Shown: positions 35,634 to 42,728 of the stretch, piece after piece
Layout: each line of letters opens with the position of its first letter
Numbering within the stretch: position 1 is the first letter of the stretch
From: Nitrospira sp.
Lineage (GTDB): Bacteria > Nitrospirota > Nitrospiria > Nitrospirales > Nitrospiraceae
Assembly: GCA_019636815.1 (NCBI GenBank)
Contig: JAHBWT010000003.1
Location: 72,086 to 114,813, forward strand
DNA: 42,728 bases
Direction of reading: 5' to 3'
Notes under the pieces: model-generated
Seen by the model: the letters and a program-made list of their open reading frames with translations, nothing else
The model's database searches: none
Told to the model about the DNA's origin: nothing
Position numbers and translations under genes: made by a program

Positions 35634-35662
35634 ACCATAATGGAGGACAAAAGGGCTGTCAA
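35634..35662 (-). promoter_or_regulatory. Promoter of ubiA, predicted leaderless
   Basis: On the minus strand TTGACA (35662-35657), 17 bases, TATGGT (35639-35634). A start six or seven bases on falls at 35627-35628, the A of the ubiA ATG. Confidence 0.6.
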
Positions 35663-35676
35663 TGCGCCGTCACCGG

Positions 35677-35705
35677 TTGTGACACACTGGGGAATTCGGT
35701 ATAAC
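35677..35705 (+). promoter_or_regulatory. Promoter of the caspase-like gene, predicted leaderless
   Basis: TTGTGA (35677-35682), 17 bases, TATAAC (35700-35705). A start six or seven bases on falls at 35711-35712, the GTG start codon. It is back-to-back with the ubiA promoter. Confidence 0.6.
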
Positions 35706-35711
35706 CACAAC

Positions 35712-37742
35712 GTGAAGCAACGACACGCAGAACAACGTCAAGGTCGGCTCCAGGGGCTCTCCCTTTCCATGGGTTGCGCGATCATGGCGGTGGTCTTGTC
35801 TGCGGCTGGCTGTTCCACCCTGACGCGAGAGAAGCAGCCGATCAACTCAGAACCCATCCCACTGACGCCGGCCGTATGGTTTTCACCGAGCGGAACGACG
35901 GCGGAAATTTCCTACCGGAATGCCTGTCACGAAACCGTGGTTCTGCCCATGGCCGATCCCCTTCTTGCGTCCGTTCCGAACAAGCTCGCAGAAGTTTTTA
36001 CCGGTGTGATGGCAAAGAACCAATCTGAAGATTTTCTGGGATCGGATGGTGTGGTCGAAGTGGGGCTCGGTTTAAGACGACTCGATGTCGTCGTCCCCAA
36101 ACAGGTGTCAGGAGAGTATCCGGCAAGTGCCACGGTAGGGCTTGAAATGGTGTTTTTGGCTCGAGATGGTACGATGCTTTTCAGTAGAAAGCTCGAAGGT
36201 ACAGGCCAGGGTACTGTGGCGGTGTCAAATCAATCCTGCGATGTGACGGGATTGGAGGCTATTGTTGAAACAGCCATTGGCTCAGTGGCCGAGGGCCTGG
36301 CTCAGCAGATGGCGCAATCGGTTCGGATACGCGAATATGCGGATCAGCGGGATAGCTGGGTTCCATTGGTCTCCCATCCCGTGACGCCATCTGACAGGGT
36401 TTTTAATACGGATCCTTCAGCGAGCCAGGACGCGATGGAAGAACTGCCGGCTACCACGGCCAAGATGGTCGAACCGGCTCAACTCAGTTTTCGCGCCATC
36501 CTACGAGATGAAAGCCGCAATAGGGTGCTTGAACCGGATGAATCTCTCACACTCGACATCGAGGTGAAAAACGAAGGGCCGGTGGAGGCTGACGATGTGG
36601 TGGTTCTGGTCAATGGGAAAGGGGGGGTAGAGCAGGTATTTCCGGCCGAAGTCCTCGTGGGCTCCATTCAGCCTGGAGAAATCAGACGCATCTCCGTGAC
36701 AAAACGAGTCACGATACCGAAAACGTCCCTCCCCGGCGAACTGACTTTGAATTTGCGTGCCGCCAGCCCGATGGCATCCATTCCACCACCCAAGGTGTTT
36801 AGTCTAGGTATCCAATCCAAGCGTGGTGATGTCGCGTCGTTGCCGGATGTTGACCGGATGCCAACAGTGCTGGGGGCGACGAGGCGGCCCAATGCCGTCA
36901 TTATCGCGATTGGAGTCGGAACGTTTGACGACGAGCACATGCCGGTGATGAAGTATGCCAGCCACGACGCAGCAGTGATGGCGGAGTATTTGCGTGCGAT
37001 CGGCGCTGTTCCACGCGAACGAATGCGTATTCTGCTCGATCGTCAAGGCGTGCGACAGGAGTTGAAAGAGACGTTTGAGCAATGGCTTCCCAAACGGGCG
37101 GATGCGGAGACCGTGCTATATGTGTTTTTTTCAGGCCGAGCGGTCGTGGATAGTCGTAACGGGGAGGTCTTGCTGGTTCCCTACGACGGCACACCGTTCG
37201 AACCAGGGCATCTTTATCCCCTGAAAAGATTGCAGGAAGCAGTTTCCCGGCTCCCGATCCAACGGGCGATCTTCATGTTCGACGCATCACTAGATCCCTC
37301 TCCAGGCGCCGATCTGACGACCATGCCCTTGCCCGATTGGACGGCGGGGCTGGAGGAACAACGGAAAGATGCGGAGATGTGGATGGTTGGAAATAGAAAT
37401 TTGCAAGAGGCCCATGTGTCTGAGCAAGGGAAGCACGGCTTGTTTACCTATCAACTCTTGAGAGGGCTCCAGGGCGTTGCCGATCTCGATCGAGATGGGA
37501 CGGTCGTGGCCGGCGAATTGTGTTTGTACGCTCGAGGTGAAGTGGCGCGTGTCGCTCGCGAACAATTCGGCAACAAACAAGACCCTCTGTGCCTGCCCCC
37601 GGTAGGGCGTGGTGCGATGATCCGCATCCATCCGATTGCCAAGGGAAATAATCCCAAGCCGCCACCGACTGCGCAGCAATCGGAGGAGCCGTCCACTGAC
37701 TTATCTGGTCCGGCTCCGAGCCCGATGCTCGTTGGACCATAG
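35712..37742 (+). CDS. Lipoprotein with catalytically dead caspase-like domain
   Basis: A 676-residue protein. The signal peptide ends in lipobox SAAGC with Cys34. An N-terminal domain follows to about 230. Residues near 260-370 form a CARDB/Ig-like beta domain (LEPDESLTLDIEVKNEGPVEA). A caspase-type (peptidase C14) domain starts near 394 (AVIIAIGVGTF, then YASHDAAVMAEYL). The catalytic His of the usual FSGHG is replaced in FFSGRAV (R476), and the catalytic Cys of the usual D-[SA]-C is replaced in FDASLDPS (S526). An EF-hand-like loop (DLDRDGTVVAGEL) and a Pro-rich tail follow. It is probably a surface- or periplasm-exposed binding pseudoenzyme. GTG 35712 is preferred to ATG 35640 because it gives a 33-residue signal and matches the promoter. 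Confidence 0.78.
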   Translation: MKQRHAEQRQGRLQGLSLSMGCAIMAVVLSAAGCSTLTREKQPINSEPIPLTPAVWFSPSGTTAEISYRNACHETVVLPMADPLLASVPNKLAEVFTGVMAKNQSEDFLGSDGVVEVGLGLRRLDVVVPKQVSGEYPASATVGLEMVFLARDGTMLFSRKLEGTGQGTVAVSNQSCDVTGLEAIVETAIGSVAEGLAQQMAQSVRIREYADQRDSWVPLVSHPVTPSDRVFNTDPSASQDAMEELPATTAKMVEPAQLSFRAILRDESRNRVLEPDESLTLDIEVKNEGPVEADDVVVLVNGKGGVEQVFPAEVLVGSIQPGEIRRISVTKRVTIPKTSLPGELTLNLRAASPMASIPPPKVFSLGIQSKRGDVASLPDVDRMPTVLGATRRPNAVIIAIGVGTFDDEHMPVMKYASHDAAVMAEYLRAIGAVPRERMRILLDRQGVRQELKETFEQWLPKRADAETVLYVFFSGRAVVDSRNGEVLLVPYDGTPFEPGHLYPLKRLQEAVSRLPIQRAIFMFDASLDPSPGADLTTMPLPDWTAGLEEQRKDAEMWMVGNRNLQEAHVSEQGKHGLFTYQLLRGLQGVADLDRDGTVVAGELCLYARGEVARVAREQFGNKQDPLCLPPVGRGAMIRIHPIAKGNNPKPPPTAQQSEEPSTDLSGPAPSPMLVGP

Positions 37743-37845: not shown

Positions 37846-37921
37846 GCCGGCGTAGCTCAGTTGGTAGAGCAGCGGTTTCGTAAACCGCAGGTCGCCCGTT
37901 CAATCCGGGTCGCCGGCTCCA
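37846..37921 (+). tRNA. tRNA-Thr (CGT)
   Basis: All arms fold. The acceptor GCCGGCG pairs with CGCCGGC, the D-arm is GCTC/GAGC, the anticodon stem GCGGT/ACCGC encloses TTCGTAA (anticodon CGT), and the T-arm GCCCG/CGGGT encloses TTCAATC. The discriminator is T and CCA is encoded (37919-37921). The 3' half is duplicated at 40671-40713, which marks this gene as an integration target. Confidence 0.96.
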
Positions 37922-38147
37922 GCATTTCTTCCTTGATTCACAATGGCCTCGCTGGCGTCTAGCTGCCCGTCGTCCCGCCTCTCTCGGTCCTCGATCACGG
38001 CCGCCTTTCCCCGCCCATCCGGTCTCTCCCTTCCCCATTTTCTCCATCTTGACCCTAACCTAAGATTCTGGGGCGGGTGTCTCATCAGCCATCTTTGTGG
38101 TCGAGGCCAAACCTTCTCCTGCATACAGCGCCTTTATCAAGGCCCCC

Positions 38148-40379
38148 TCACTCACAGTACTCAGCGTTGATGAAGGCGCGCAGTTCGTGGTGCTCGAAAA
38201 TTTCGCAGTAGTCGCGCTTGCCGGCCCCCGACCAGTTACTGTGCTTGTCAAGGATTTCCATGACTCGATTGGCGAACTCATATCGGTCCTTGTACGTCGA
38301 GGCGGCTTGCAGATCTGCTGCCCAGAAGACGAGGATGTTGAAATCCTTGTCAGTCGACGGGTACCAGGTATGGTCGATGCTGGAGCCGGATACTTTCCTC
38401 CCATGGTAAAACTCCCACAAGGCCTGGCCGACGACCCGACCGGCTCGATAGGGATCATCGGTATTGTTCACGCAGAGGAAGTTTCCGATTGTCATGCGAC
38501 TGGCATTGTCGGTATGGATACGTCCCGTATCTGTATGTGAAAAATAGAGCCGATCGGTACTCGAGGGCTCGTAACCCACCCCGTAGTAGTAATGCCAGTA
38601 GGCCTGAGGCACGGCCGTGCCAAGCAACCCCTCATGGGTGAACTTCAGTTGGTTTGCTGAGCCGCAATCCAAATCCGATCCGACATCGTAGTAACGCTTC
38701 AAGAAAAAATGAGTCAGTTCATGCTGGAGGTTGCTGGGGTTATCAAAGCAGCCGCCTCCCTCGCAAGCGGCGTTGTGGTTGGAGTTGCCACTCGGATTAC
38801 GGTGCGCCAACCGGATGACGTTGGTGCCTTCGCCCTTGTCGTCTTCGGTGGTGACTTTATACGTGCTGTTGTGGACCGAACCATCGCGACATGCATCGGT
38901 GATGATCAGCACGCGCGGATAGTTGTTGGCGGAACCGGGCAGCACGCCGAGCGCATCCAGCGAGGCTTTTAGCCACTGGGAGTACGATCGTGCCCAATAA
39001 TAGACATGGGTCTCCGCGAACGCTTCCGACGCGCCGTTGGGATAATACTGATCGAAGTCGCGGTTGCTCCGGCGAGTGGCGCGAATAAAAGACCTCCCGG
39101 TATAGGTACCATGGGCCGCCTGGCACCAGGTGGAGTTGAACGAGGTCTCTGCACAGTTCGTTTCAGGATCGCCTTCGCAGCGGTGATCGTTCATCACGTA
39201 GAAAAAGTCGTGCTCGAGTCTGCGGTCATTTCTTGTATAAATGCCGGTGGAGACGATCTGATGCGGGTCGAAGAGATTCCCACCGGGGAAATACCACCGG
39301 TTGATCTTCGCATCCGTAAAGGCACGGTCCACGAGGTCGGTGACATTGAGGATTTCTCCGGTCGCTGCCTGGATAATCGTACGCCAGTGACACTCGCCGT
39401 CCGGTGAGAGTAGCTCGACGTCCCAAACACGAAGACGGCGCACAGGGTCCACCGCAGGCTCGGCGCGCAGCGTTTCGTACTGGCGTCCGCGGCACCGGAT
39501 AAAGGCATCAGCGGCCAGACGTGTTGCCGCCGATTGATCGATTCTCTTCTCAGCCAGCGGCGGGACCGTTAGTTTGGCAGTGGTCGTGATCATCCGACTA
39601 ATACCGATGACATTCCAATTCACATCAAAGTGCACCAGCGTCCGGCCGTAGAGCAGTTTTTCTTCCCCCATGTACCGTTGCTCGAAAACGGCTTTCCGAA
39701 AGTACGCGCCGATTTCATAGGTCACCGGTATAAGTGTCGCGCGGACTTGCCTTTGATCCACTTCGAAGACATCAAGGTAGCGACTCAGAAACGCCTCGAG
39801 GATCGGCAACGTCACTTGCTGCTCGATGCGAATTTGCTGTTCATCGGGCCTCATCCACTCGACGAGCCGGTCGGGATCGGTTGGCGATTTCCGCCGTGTT
39901 TCTTGAGTGGGCCTTTGAATGCCTGAGAATTCGTCCTCGGTATCGGATTCCCCCTTCGTGGTTCCCTGTTCTCCGAGTTCACGTTCGGGGAGGGTGGGCA
40001 AGGCTTGATCAAAATCGATGTCAAGATCGCGGGCTGGCTTGCTCTGTGCACCGCTGAACCGCGGTGCCGGCAATTTCAATGGCGTACGAGGGGTGTCAGG
40101 AAGTCCGAGCACCTTAAGCAACGGCCTCGCATAGTCCGGAATGGTGGGCTTGGCCGTCGTGGCAAACCCATCCACATGACCGTTGAAGAACGTAAACGAG
40201 GCATCGGGATCGGTGGCTTTGAATCGTTTGACTGCTTCGGCGACAGCAGCGGCAGGAGGGACGTCGCGAACGCGCGGCGTCTCTCGTTCCGACACCCTCG
40301 GTCCGGCACACGCCGCGACCACAAGGAGAATGATCACCAGAGAACGCATTGGGATTGGAATGAGGAGCTTGACGTCCAT
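38148..40379 (-). CDS. Secreted HEXXH zinc-metallopeptidase lipoprotein (thermolysin/fungalysin-like plan)
   Basis: A 743-residue protein with signal peptide and lipobox VAAC (Cys24), a low-complexity Pro/Glu-rich region to about 170, and a propeptide-like region at about 180-360. That region resembles FTP and PepSY inhibitory domains (TLVHFDVNWNVIGI, then WRTIIQAATGEILNVTDLVD). The peptidase domain carries H553-E-L-T-H557, with E583 (FTHEG) as a candidate third zinc ligand. Many Cys residues suggest disulfides. The family should cleave proteins outside the cytoplasm after removal of the propeptide. GGAGG sits five bases before the ATG. It is the only gene between tRNA-Thr and the copy of its 3' half, so it may have been acquired by insertion. 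Confidence 0.75.
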   Translation of the reverse strand: MDVKLLIPIPMRSLVIILLVVAACAGPRVSERETPRVRDVPPAAAVAEAVKRFKATDPDASFTFFNGHVDGFATTAKPTIPDYARPLLKVLGLPDTPRTPLKLPAPRFSGAQSKPARDLDIDFDQALPTLPERELGEQGTTKGESDTEDEFSGIQRPTQETRRKSPTDPDRLVEWMRPDEQQIRIEQQVTLPILEAFLSRYLDVFEVDQRQVRATLIPVTYEIGAYFRKAVFEQRYMGEEKLLYGRTLVHFDVNWNVIGISRMITTTAKLTVPPLAEKRIDQSAATRLAADAFIRCRGRQYETLRAEPAVDPVRRLRVWDVELLSPDGECHWRTIIQAATGEILNVTDLVDRAFTDAKINRWYFPGGNLFDPHQIVSTGIYTRNDRRLEHDFFYVMNDHRCEGDPETNCAETSFNSTWCQAAHGTYTGRSFIRATRRSNRDFDQYYPNGASEAFAETHVYYWARSYSQWLKASLDALGVLPGSANNYPRVLIITDACRDGSVHNSTYKVTTEDDKGEGTNVIRLAHRNPSGNSNHNAACEGGGCFDNPSNLQHELTHFFLKRYYDVGSDLDCGSANQLKFTHEGLLGTAVPQAYWHYYYGVGYEPSSTDRLYFSHTDTGRIHTDNASRMTIGNFLCVNNTDDPYRAGRVVGQALWEFYHGRKVSGSSIDHTWYPSTDKDFNILVFWAADLQAASTYKDRYEFANRVMEILDKHSNWSGAGKRDYCEIFEHHELRAFINAEYCE

Positions 40380-40418
40380 ATGGTCCTCCTTGACCTGGTT
40401 CAGATCGTAGACCTCATA

Positions 40419-40446
40419 AGCTACTGCACTCGAGCTACTGCACTCG
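40419..40446. repeat. Tandem 14-base direct repeat
   Basis: AGCTACTGCACTCG occurs twice without a gap (40419-40432 and 40433-40446), upstream of the metallopeptidase gene. A minus-strand -10-like TATGAT (40459-40454) lies just beyond it, so the repeat would be in the 5' leader of that gene. It could be a protein-binding site or a slippage duplication. Confidence 0.7.
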
Positions 40447-40670
40447 CCGAGCGATCATAGCGCAAACTTCGATCTCGGGGAATATACACGATCCGATATC
40501 CTCAAAAGACACCCATCTGTTGCTGTGTTTTTCAGCTTGCTGAGTTCCGTCTGCTACCACGCTGCTACCAGGACAAGACAACTTAGCCTTATCTAGGGCA
40601 ATGTCAGCAGCATCTGGTGGTGTGGTTTCTTGTGGGCTTAGGTTGTCTGAGGTTGGACTTGCTGAAATTT
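40447..40670. other. Gap between metallopeptidase gene and tRNA fragment
   Basis: About 220 bases with no convincing gene. It holds a possible minus-strand promoter at its left edge and a short near-repeat (GCTGCTACCA and CTGCTACCAC) near 40551-40570. Nothing else is recognisable. Confidence 0.35.
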
Positions 40671-40713
40671 GTAAACTGCAGGTCGCCCGTTCAATCAGGG
40701 TCGCTGGCTCCAG
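40671..40713 (+). repeat. Degenerate copy of the tRNA-Thr 3' half (candidate attachment site)
   Basis: These 43 bases match 37880-37922 at 40 positions, from the anticodon loop through the T-arm and acceptor to the CCA end. The differences are C to T in the anticodon stem, C to A in the T-stem and C to T in the acceptor stem. Such a partial 3' copy is what site-specific integration into a tRNA gene leaves. It is not a functional tRNA since the 5' half is missing. Confidence 0.8.
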
Positions 40714-40906
40714 TCTAATAAATCGCAGGTCAATAGTCACACGTGCTTATAGGATCACTTGCCCGCGATGGCCAGGGACCCTATCACAAGCACTGGAACC
40801 ACCGTTGGAACTCAGAGTGGAGTGAAACAAGGCTGCCGAGATGTTATTCGACGAACCAAAGAAAATATGTGCTGTTTTACCAGCGTGAACTGAAACAAAC
40901 TGAGAA

Positions 40907-40924
40907 TAGGGCTATAAGGCCCTA
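40907..40924. repeat. Small hairpin
   Basis: TAGGGC (40907-40912) and GCCCTA (40919-40924) pair perfectly around TATAAG. There is no T run behind it. Confidence 0.35.
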
Positions 40925-40967
40925 ATCTTACGTGGTACTTGCCACTTTAAGTAGAACTGCTACGCTG

Positions 40968-40986
40968 TCACCTCGATTAGAGGTGA
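40968..40986. repeat. Small hairpin
   Basis: TCACCTC (40968-40974) and GAGGTGA (40980-40986) pair perfectly around GATTA. A short T stretch (ACTTTT) follows nine bases later, too far for a standard terminator. Confidence 0.35.
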
Positions 40987-41264
40987 CCAGACTTTTCGTG
41001 ACTATGGACTCGAATCGATTCTGCTACGGACACTCAGCTTTCCAAGAAACACTTTTCCACACTGATTCGCTCAAAGAGCGGATCTCCTGTTGCCGAATAG
41101 TGCTCGCATTGTCACCCCTGTTCTTAGGACATGAAGTGCCTAAGTACAGCTAGAGGAGGGGGTGACTCGAACAGTAATCGAAAGGTGCTCTAGAAACCAA
41201 TCCTGCAATTTTGATTCTGTGCTCGCCGAAGAATAGTCCCTCACCCTACTGCGGAGGTGCCAAA

Positions 41265-42668
41265 ATGAGCCAAGAAACACCCCCTAACCAAAAACCGACC
41301 GAAGCCAGTAAATTTGTAGCGCCGACCAGTATCAGTTTTGTGAAACCACAGCAGCCGGGAGGACTTATTCCATCTGTTCCTGATAAACCAACGAAGACGG
41401 GAGAGCTGACCCTGAATCAGGGGCGAACTCTTACGGAGACGGAATCTACAAACCATATGAGAGTGCTGTTCCTTGAGGCATCTGGACCGCTTCGATCGGG
41501 CTTCATCCCAGGTACCACGCTGCCTGTTAGTTTCAGCGATATCAGAATCAACCTGACATACACCGTTGCGAAACAGCCAACAACGGCTTACGACTGGGGA
41601 ACTTGGCTGAATCGCGTTAACACTTCTCCGTTTCAAGACTATGTGAAGGCAACACAGAGTAACACATCGATTGTTCCGGTTGGGGCAGATACCTATTTCC
41701 CGTCTTTAACTCAACAGAGCGGACAGAGGTGGGGCGATGTGGTTTTCGGTCTGCAGTCAATACGTGGCTCCAGTCGGTACGGTGGATCATTCCATGTGAC
41801 TCTTGCCCCGATTGAGGACTTTGGCTTCGAAGTTGCGGATCTCGAATCTGGCGTATACTTGAACCTCACACAATGGCTTCTCCATATTTACATCCGAGCA
41901 AATGGATCTTTATTCACCAATAATCAAACCCTCGGTCCGCCAGCTAATTCCTTGATTAACTCTACCGCGATTGAGATCGAGGCGCCTGGGGTCGAAGCCT
42001 ACTCAGTCAACAATGGAGTTGTGGTTCTTAATTCTGCAGTCACCCAGAAACAGATAGACGGCCTTCTCACCGCGGCGGCGCAACAAGCGGTTCAACGGCT
42101 CGACCTTCTCTTACGATTTACTCTCGGATTTGTTCATCACCAATACCTACCAAACTTCAACCGTGTCAGCCAGAGAATCACAGCGTCTTATGTCTCAGAT
42201 GGCGCCATTGCATTTGTGAGCGCTCAGCGCAATCCGTATGTAAAAATCATGGTGAAGTGTCACTTCTTCAAAGCCGATCTCGTGGGCAAGCATGAATTAA
42301 CGGCTATGCCCTGGATCATCGGGCGGAAGAAACCGTTCGTGGTTTTTAGCTTTGAACACAAAAAGTATCTGGGGGCTGGTGACGAAACTCCATTTATCAC
42401 CATGGGGTATGTTCCTCTCAAGGAGTTTGCAACTGTCAATGAAGTTTCCGTATTCGCTAACTGGCGTGAAAAAGATCTTCTTCTCGATGATAAGGCAATA
42501 TCCAATGCCATAGTCTTTAATGTTATATTCGACGCGACGGCACTGCAGAATCGGGCAAACAATAATAACCTCGGTCCGATAGGTGATGGTCTACGTGGTT
42601 TCTCCAACGATTTGAGAATGTTTAGAGATGTCGGGGTTCAGGTCGCGTTTGAACTGGTGAAGCTCTAA
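41265..42668 (+). CDS. Unrecognised 467-residue soluble protein
   Basis: I do not recognise this protein. It has no signal peptide or membrane helix. A Pro/Thr/Lys-rich N-terminal 50 residues is followed by a long, probably beta-rich body with many Asn, Gln, Ser and Thr and few Cys (one, in VKCHFF). A helical stretch lies near the middle (ITDGLLTAAAQQAVQRL-like) and the end is VGVQVAFELVKL. GGAGGT stands six bases before the ATG at 41265, which fixes the start. The gene is visibly richer in A and T than its neighbours and lies just beyond the tRNA-derived repeat, both signs of horizontal acquisition. No phage, toxin or enzyme motif could be assigned. Confidence 0.8.
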   Translation: MSQETPPNQKPTEASKFVAPTSISFVKPQQPGGLIPSVPDKPTKTGELTLNQGRTLTETESTNHMRVLFLEASGPLRSGFIPGTTLPVSFSDIRINLTYTVAKQPTTAYDWGTWLNRVNTSPFQDYVKATQSNTSIVPVGADTYFPSLTQQSGQRWGDVVFGLQSIRGSSRYGGSFHVTLAPIEDFGFEVADLESGVYLNLTQWLLHIYIRANGSLFTNNQTLGPPANSLINSTAIEIEAPGVEAYSVNNGVVVLNSAVTQKQIDGLLTAAAQQAVQRLDLLLRFTLGFVHHQYLPNFNRVSQRITASYVSDGAIAFVSAQRNPYVKIMVKCHFFKADLVGKHELTAMPWIIGRKKPFVVFSFEHKKYLGAGDETPFITMGYVPLKEFATVNEVSVFANWREKDLLLDDKAISNAIVFNVIFDATALQNRANNNNLGPIGDGLRGFSNDLRMFRDVGVQVAFELVKL

Positions 42669-42695
42669 AACCAACAAACTAATTTCGCGGGAGTT

Positions 42696-42715
42696 CCCCA
42701 CCTGGGAGGGTGGGG
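42696..42715 (+). terminator. GC-rich hairpin after the last gene
   Basis: CCCCACC (42696-42702) and GGTGGGG (42709-42715) pair over seven bases around TGGGAG, 28 bases after the stop. No T run follows within the window, so termination is uncertain. Confidence 0.35.
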
Positions 42716-42728
42716 GTGTGAGCTGGGC

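Follow-up and report, generated by a model that had tools for sequence, protein, structure and literature searches.

A peptidase gene between tRNA-Thr and a copy of its 3' half in Nitrospira sp.: the probable remnant of a decayed, stacked island

When the 3' half of a tRNA gene reappears a short distance downstream of the gene itself, is the stretch between the two copies an inserted element, and could it still move? We addressed this for tRNA-Thr(CGT) of a Nitrospira sp. in a window of 42,728 nucleotides (the whole stretch of DNA that was analysed), by comparing its genome (G000) with 59 relatives of the same genus and of the order, i.e. 60 genomes in total. As draft assemblies are incomplete, absences reported here, including that of the integrase, are absences from these assemblies, and gene names given without a profile match were assigned by eye.

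The duplicated tRNA-Thr half and its arm

The left flank, the target and the distal copy are made up of the following features:

35640 to 37742, plus strand: conserved chromosomal gene upstream of tRNA-Thr, for a 700-aa lipoprotein-like protein with a caspase-like domain
37846 to 37921, plus strand: intact tRNA-Thr(CGT), the integration target, attL side (ARAGORN; Rfam RF00005, 65.9 bits)
37877 to 37921, plus strand: att core within the tRNA gene, anticodon loop to CCA, 45 nt, with a boundary common to the same-genus orphan copies
40553 to 40570, plus strand: two arm-type sites GCTACCA at a spacing of 11 bp (GCTACCACGCTGCTACCA), located by exact 18-mer search
40553 to 40667, plus strand: right attP arm of class 1, 115 bp, delimited by ungapped alignment to nine other copies
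40668 to 40712, plus strand: att1, the duplicated tRNA-Thr 3' half (attR core), 41/45 identical

The caspase-like gene (Pfam Peptidase_C14 at cut-off, NCBIfam caspase_w_EACC1 well below cut-off) forms a fixed left flank in the genus, and the gene order upstream of tRNA-Thr was the same in the relatives inspected. The first-pass annotation had reported that the 3' half of the tRNA recurs at 40671-40713, and this was confirmed: within the following 4.8 kb, the best ungapped match of 37880-37922 lies at 40671, with 40 out of 43 identities against a maximum of 25 in 60 shuffles. We prefer to define the duplicated unit as 45 nt, i.e. 37877-37921 versus 40668-40712 (TTyGTAAAC...GGCTCCA). It begins in the anticodon loop and ends at the CCA, with the next base, G, matching as well, and reached an E-value of 3.8e-12 in a genome-wide BLAST. 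The mismatches had been read as the sign of an old event; three or four mismatches by themselves say little on age.

att1 reads TTTGTAAAC, with the TGT anticodon, and not TTCGTAAAC; a T in GCTGG is common to att1 and a second orphan half (att2, see below) and is absent from the tRNA. Such differences could have arisen either by mutation or by exchange with elements of the TGT isoacceptor.

Directly 5' of att1 lies the 115-bp arm, which starts with GCTACCACGCTGCTACCA. All order-level relatives lack an exact copy of this 18-mer, which is found in eight genomes of the genus (the present one among them). By chance, 0.02 such GCTACCA pairs are expected in the window when up to three mismatches are allowed. 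The arm as a whole aligned without gaps and at fixed spacing to nine other same-genus copies, with 79-89 of the 115 positions identical (69-77%; shuffled arms gave a mean of 29 and a maximum of 49). Seven of the nine are directly followed by a tRNA-Thr 3' half, of which five are CGT or divergent CGT-like and two belong to the TGT isoacceptor; after the remaining two, both in G005, the core is truncated or missing. A weaker relative of the arm precedes the orphan copy at G011:C5:206098. Two viral contigs also matched the 18-mer, both without a tRNA-Thr core, and the motif alone is therefore not specific outside the genus.

tRNA-Thr as a landing site and the integrases beside it

A search of the 59 relatives with the tRNA recovered a full tRNA-Thr gene in nearly all same-genus genomes and, in several of these, orphan 3' halves with a shared boundary, which are frequently lined up behind the tRNA (e.g. 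in G011:C5, with orphan copies at 206098, 193612 and 187436 and the tRNA at 217787). At least one orphan copy within four mismatches was found in 9 out of 35 same-genus genomes, our own counted, and nearly all well-matched halves begin at the anticodon-loop boundary, the copy in G034 being the exception. As a control, the same search with the tRNA-Cys of the window found no half copies in 21 same-genus genomes and 14 order-level relatives, and a single full copy in each genome that gave a match; the duplication is thus specific to the tRNA-Thr target. With a clean tRNA-Cys and a boundary shared by the orphan halves, the copy is not the general dispersed repeat that had been raised as a counter-argument to an insertion. 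tRNA-Thr is a repeated landing site for mobile elements across the genus; our literature search found no paper describing this site in Nitrospira.

We find it hardly credible that the copy is unrelated to integration, be it as a tRNA fragment (chance or dispersed) or as the product of local segmental duplication. Local duplication does occur: in G034 (L078:15746-15920), 99 bp comprising the 3' part of tRNA-Thr and flanking sequence are repeated in tandem, a duplication which starts outside the anticodon loop and is probably a local event. The copy in the window, however, starts at the anticodon loop, lacks a 5' half and has an integrase-type arm, and both the conservation of this arm and the synteny described below contradict such an origin.

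Two further loci were observed in this search. The stack in G011:C5:187436-217862 has at least three orphan att copies across 30 kb and contains very large ORFs (1346 and 1964 aa) without a PHROGs match. In our own genome, a 5' half of tRNA-Thr(TGT) stands as an orphan at C80:27061-27098 (L007 1501-1538), stopping in the anticodon loop, with a flank resembling the upstream flank of the intact tRNA-Thr(TGT) on C89. It is the mirror image of the att1 case, and comes perhaps from a rearranged insertion.

The class-1 tyrosine integrase is 426 aa long in G011:C12, and its homolog in G003 (77% identical) matches Pfam Phage_integrase. Copies with at least 65% identity occur at nine loci of the genus, each of which adjoins tRNA-Thr(CGT) or tRNA-Thr(TGT), or sits in an att-bounded stack there; in G012:C181 and some other cases the reading frame of the integrase extends into the tRNA half. 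In these elements, one GCTACCA pair follows the core at about 72 bp on the side of the integrase, and another precedes the core by 115 bp at the far end. Paired sites on both sides of the core constitute the two-armed attP layout of lambda-type integrases. A complete element of about 45.6 kb is found in G011:C12, with tRNA-Thr(TGT) and the integrase at one end and arm and att at the other. It encodes a MobA/VirD2-like relaxase, a 2942-aa glycoside hydrolase family 94-like protein, an NhaA-type antiporter and pyruvate:ferredoxin oxidoreductase-like subunits, and is IME-like. An element of about 15 kb in G003:C157 has the same integrase and arm, together with a terminase small subunit and a DnaD-like loader, with a primase/helicase-like protein in the neighboring layer. 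Cargo thus varies among class-1 elements. A second class is characterized by TTGTGCTAA pairs and an integrase of its own (G012:C8, C135).

The first-pass annotation had attributed the copy to tyrosine-recombinase insertion at the tRNA, and this attribution gains support from the arm, from empty sites in relatives (see below) and from the integrases beside the tRNA. In the search for integrases acting on this tRNA, which it had proposed, such genes were found directly beside the tRNA in several same-genus genomes. No class-1 integrase was found anywhere in this assembly, nor was a complete class-1 element seen in this genome.

One integrase and arm module appears in both satellite-like and IME-like elements (L106:7706-20000, L103-L105; G003:C157, G011:C12). 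A broader reading, namely that a single module dedicated to tRNA-Thr (CGT and TGT) is common to an IME-like element, to a phage-satellite-like element with terminase small subunit, primase and helicase loader, and to remnants without an integrase, such as the present one, that a resident helper might still excise or capture, so that tRNA-Thr would act as a common cassette port of the genus, seems improbable to us. As a separate observation, a tyrosine integrase gene lies just 5' of tRNA-Thr(TGT) in our genome (C89:13825-14495, L005). The same arrangement is seen in other members of the genus (L106:9-1045), as if fixed, and is broken in G021.

The segment, its cargo and the outer boundary

Between the tRNA and the contig end, the remaining features are:

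37922 to 38147, no strand: left junction of the segment, 226 bp, with no integrase and no GCTACCA or TTGTGCTAA sites
38148 to 40379, minus strand: cargo, a 743-aa lipoprotein-like, metallopeptidase-like protein, with an intact frame and HExxH
40713 to 42728, no strand: first part of the next segment in the stack, cut off where the contig ends, its outer boundary being att2 on contig C82 by synteny
41265 to 42668, plus strand: 467-aa ORF without a recognised family, in the second segment, absent from the 59 relatives

The peptidase gene is the only long gene-like ORF within 37922-40670, and none of 11 neighborhood integrases could be detected there, the sole matches being a few residues encoded by the tRNA half; the initial description of the segment as one metallopeptidase gene without an integrase thereby stands. 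Nor was an integrase found in 37922-42728 or in the 4.6 kb of C82 inside att2. An apparent integrase remnant right of att1 (tblastn E 0.002-0.005) was rejected, its alignment likewise resting on residues encoded by the tRNA half. The left junction has no match in the 59 relatives, and the search for a third insertion there gave no match in any relative. With 56.0% GC versus 54.7% for the rest of the window, the segment does not stand out in composition.

The peptidase was absent from all 59 relatives; its presence in the same place throughout the group would have spoken against insertion. Its distribution is patchy, and like the left junction it is private to this genome among the 60 compared. 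Homologs were identified in a Burkholderiales MAG (about 62-63% identity) and a Myxococcales MAG (54%), and the HExxH residues (H553, E554, H557) are invariant in three homologs. Nitrosomonas ureae has a short fragment (56 residues, 79% identity; L114:8001-8168), which lies a few kb from genes resembling a conjugative type IV secretion cluster. The homologs in other phyla have no tRNA nearby and no class-1 arms beside them. The protein had no Pfam or NCBIfam match up to E=1, no PHROGs family, no credible PDB relative and no match on plasmids, and the AlphaFold model (mean pLDDT 35) was too poor to use.

Where does the island end? The window stops together with contig C67, and att2, which also begins in the anticodon loop and ends at the CCA, is located on another contig (C82:30037-30081; 43/45, E=2.6e-14). 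The part of C82 past att2 is collinear with what follows tRNA-Thr downstream in relatives. A conserved 124-aa gene is found there at 1.2 kb from att2. Its distance is likewise 1.2 kb from the tRNA itself in G006 and in G018, which are thus empty sites, from the second copy in G034 and from the orphan copy in G004; in G010, too, the tRNA is immediately followed by the bases that come first after att2 (TACAATGCTTGTC). Relatives with an empty tRNA-Thr site, suggested earlier as a check on the insertion, therefore exist, and they lack the peptidase. Since the flank beyond att2 is the one found directly after tRNA-Thr in relatives, the island consists of at least two stacked insertions, with att2 on its chromosomal side and att1 as an internal boundary. 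The arm of att2 differs from the class-1 arm and is shared with copies in G011 and G012, and at least two element classes therefore use the tRNA-Thr site. Synteny suggests that C67 and C82 join within the second segment, which, when sought as a means of closing this gap, had no other match in the assembly; on C82, the 4.6 kb on the inner side of att2 contain IS200-like and IS5-like transposases.

A probable decayed layer and its known counterparts

We consider it very likely that 40553-40712 represents the right end, still preserved, of a class-1 element at tRNA-Thr whose left end has been lost, and that the segment is a decayed layer of a stacked island, with the peptidase gene in it. The attP of class-1 elements would recombine with the anticodon loop of tRNA-Thr genes, so that integration would rebuild the 3' half of the tRNA on the left and leave the displaced half at the far right end, a two-copy outcome that we infer from a Campbell-type mechanism. 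The left end of the element, i.e. the integrase gene and the left arm, would later have been lost or replaced, and the peptidase gene would be what remains between the two ends. Repeated insertions would stack and older layers decay, the segment in the window presumably being such a layer; a second would come next, ended by att2 with a class-2 arm, followed by normal chromosome. As the left junction has no arm or trace of an integrase, and the assembly no class-1 integrase, the right end is seen as preserved and the left end as gone. For the same reasons the segment is best read as a decayed remnant and, the integrase gene not being inside the element, it was filed as such and not as an intact island.

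Present mobility, with tRNA-Thr and att1 serving as attL and attR and an integrase supplied in trans, or with cis mobilization by accretion, strikes us as very improbable. In its favor, both core sites and a well-preserved right arm are still present, the reading frame of the peptidase is uninterrupted, and CIME-type mobilization is documented in other bacteria (PMC5704250). The absence of left arm sites, however, argues against it, as do the lack of a class-1 integrase in the assembly, the four mismatches of att1 in 45 positions and the peptidase relatives in other phyla, which are neither at a tRNA nor beside such arms. From its sequence the segment is probably immobile, and most likely not able to excise on its own. 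Of the two options in the first-pass annotation, a decayed element is thus favored over a peptidase cassette moved in trans, for which left arm and integrase are missing. A self-contained peptidase cassette was not supported either, and an integron-like cassette was rejected, the sites being tRNA halves with lambda-type arms and each class having its own integrase.

A somewhat unlikely, still appreciable possibility differs from the decayed class-1 layer solely in the origin of the cargo: the peptidase gene may have come separately, e.g. by illegitimate recombination, into an older att-bounded remnant, and never have been class-1 cargo. The left junction and the peptidase match no class-1 element, and the relatives of the peptidase occur in unrelated contexts, both of which fit separate arrival. 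Within the segment, however, the surroundings of the gene contained no recognisable insertion sequence, and cargo differs among class-1 elements anyway.

Read as a decayed class-1 layer, an isolated repeat becomes part of a defined integration hotspot, for which target, crossover region, arm-type sites and cognate integrase family can be named. The layers stacked at tRNA-Thr become readable in order, gene gain at this site in the genus can be traced, and the location of further cargo predicted.

The closest counterparts are CIMEs, decayed ICEs or IMEs left in tandem at an integration site, tandem accretion having been described for both ICEs and IMEs (PMC5704250). Like these, the segment is bounded by att core repeats, contains no integrase or transfer genes (the peptidase only), and forms a stack with a further insertion at one target gene. 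It differs in that its left arm is lost too: both att cores are kept and arm sites are present at the right end only, so that the attL side is incomplete. In Dehalococcoides, islands lie in tandem downstream of one RNA gene (ssrA), split by repeats of its 3' end, and some have no integration module (PMC3146451), features which all recur here. Those islands, however, involve a serine recombinase at the tmRNA gene and a 20-bp repeat, in contrast to tyrosine recombinases and the anticodon loop of tRNA-Thr. With tRNA-targeted IMEs and islands that use lambda-type integrases, the element in G011:C12 agrees in target, crossover region, arm sites and integrase position, and also has the MobA/VirD2-like relaxase, whereas the window segment has neither integrase nor relaxase. 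The integration mechanism itself is classical, and the segment shares with genomic islands the direct repeat of a tRNA 3' end at its distal end, together with an empty site and absence of the insert in relatives.
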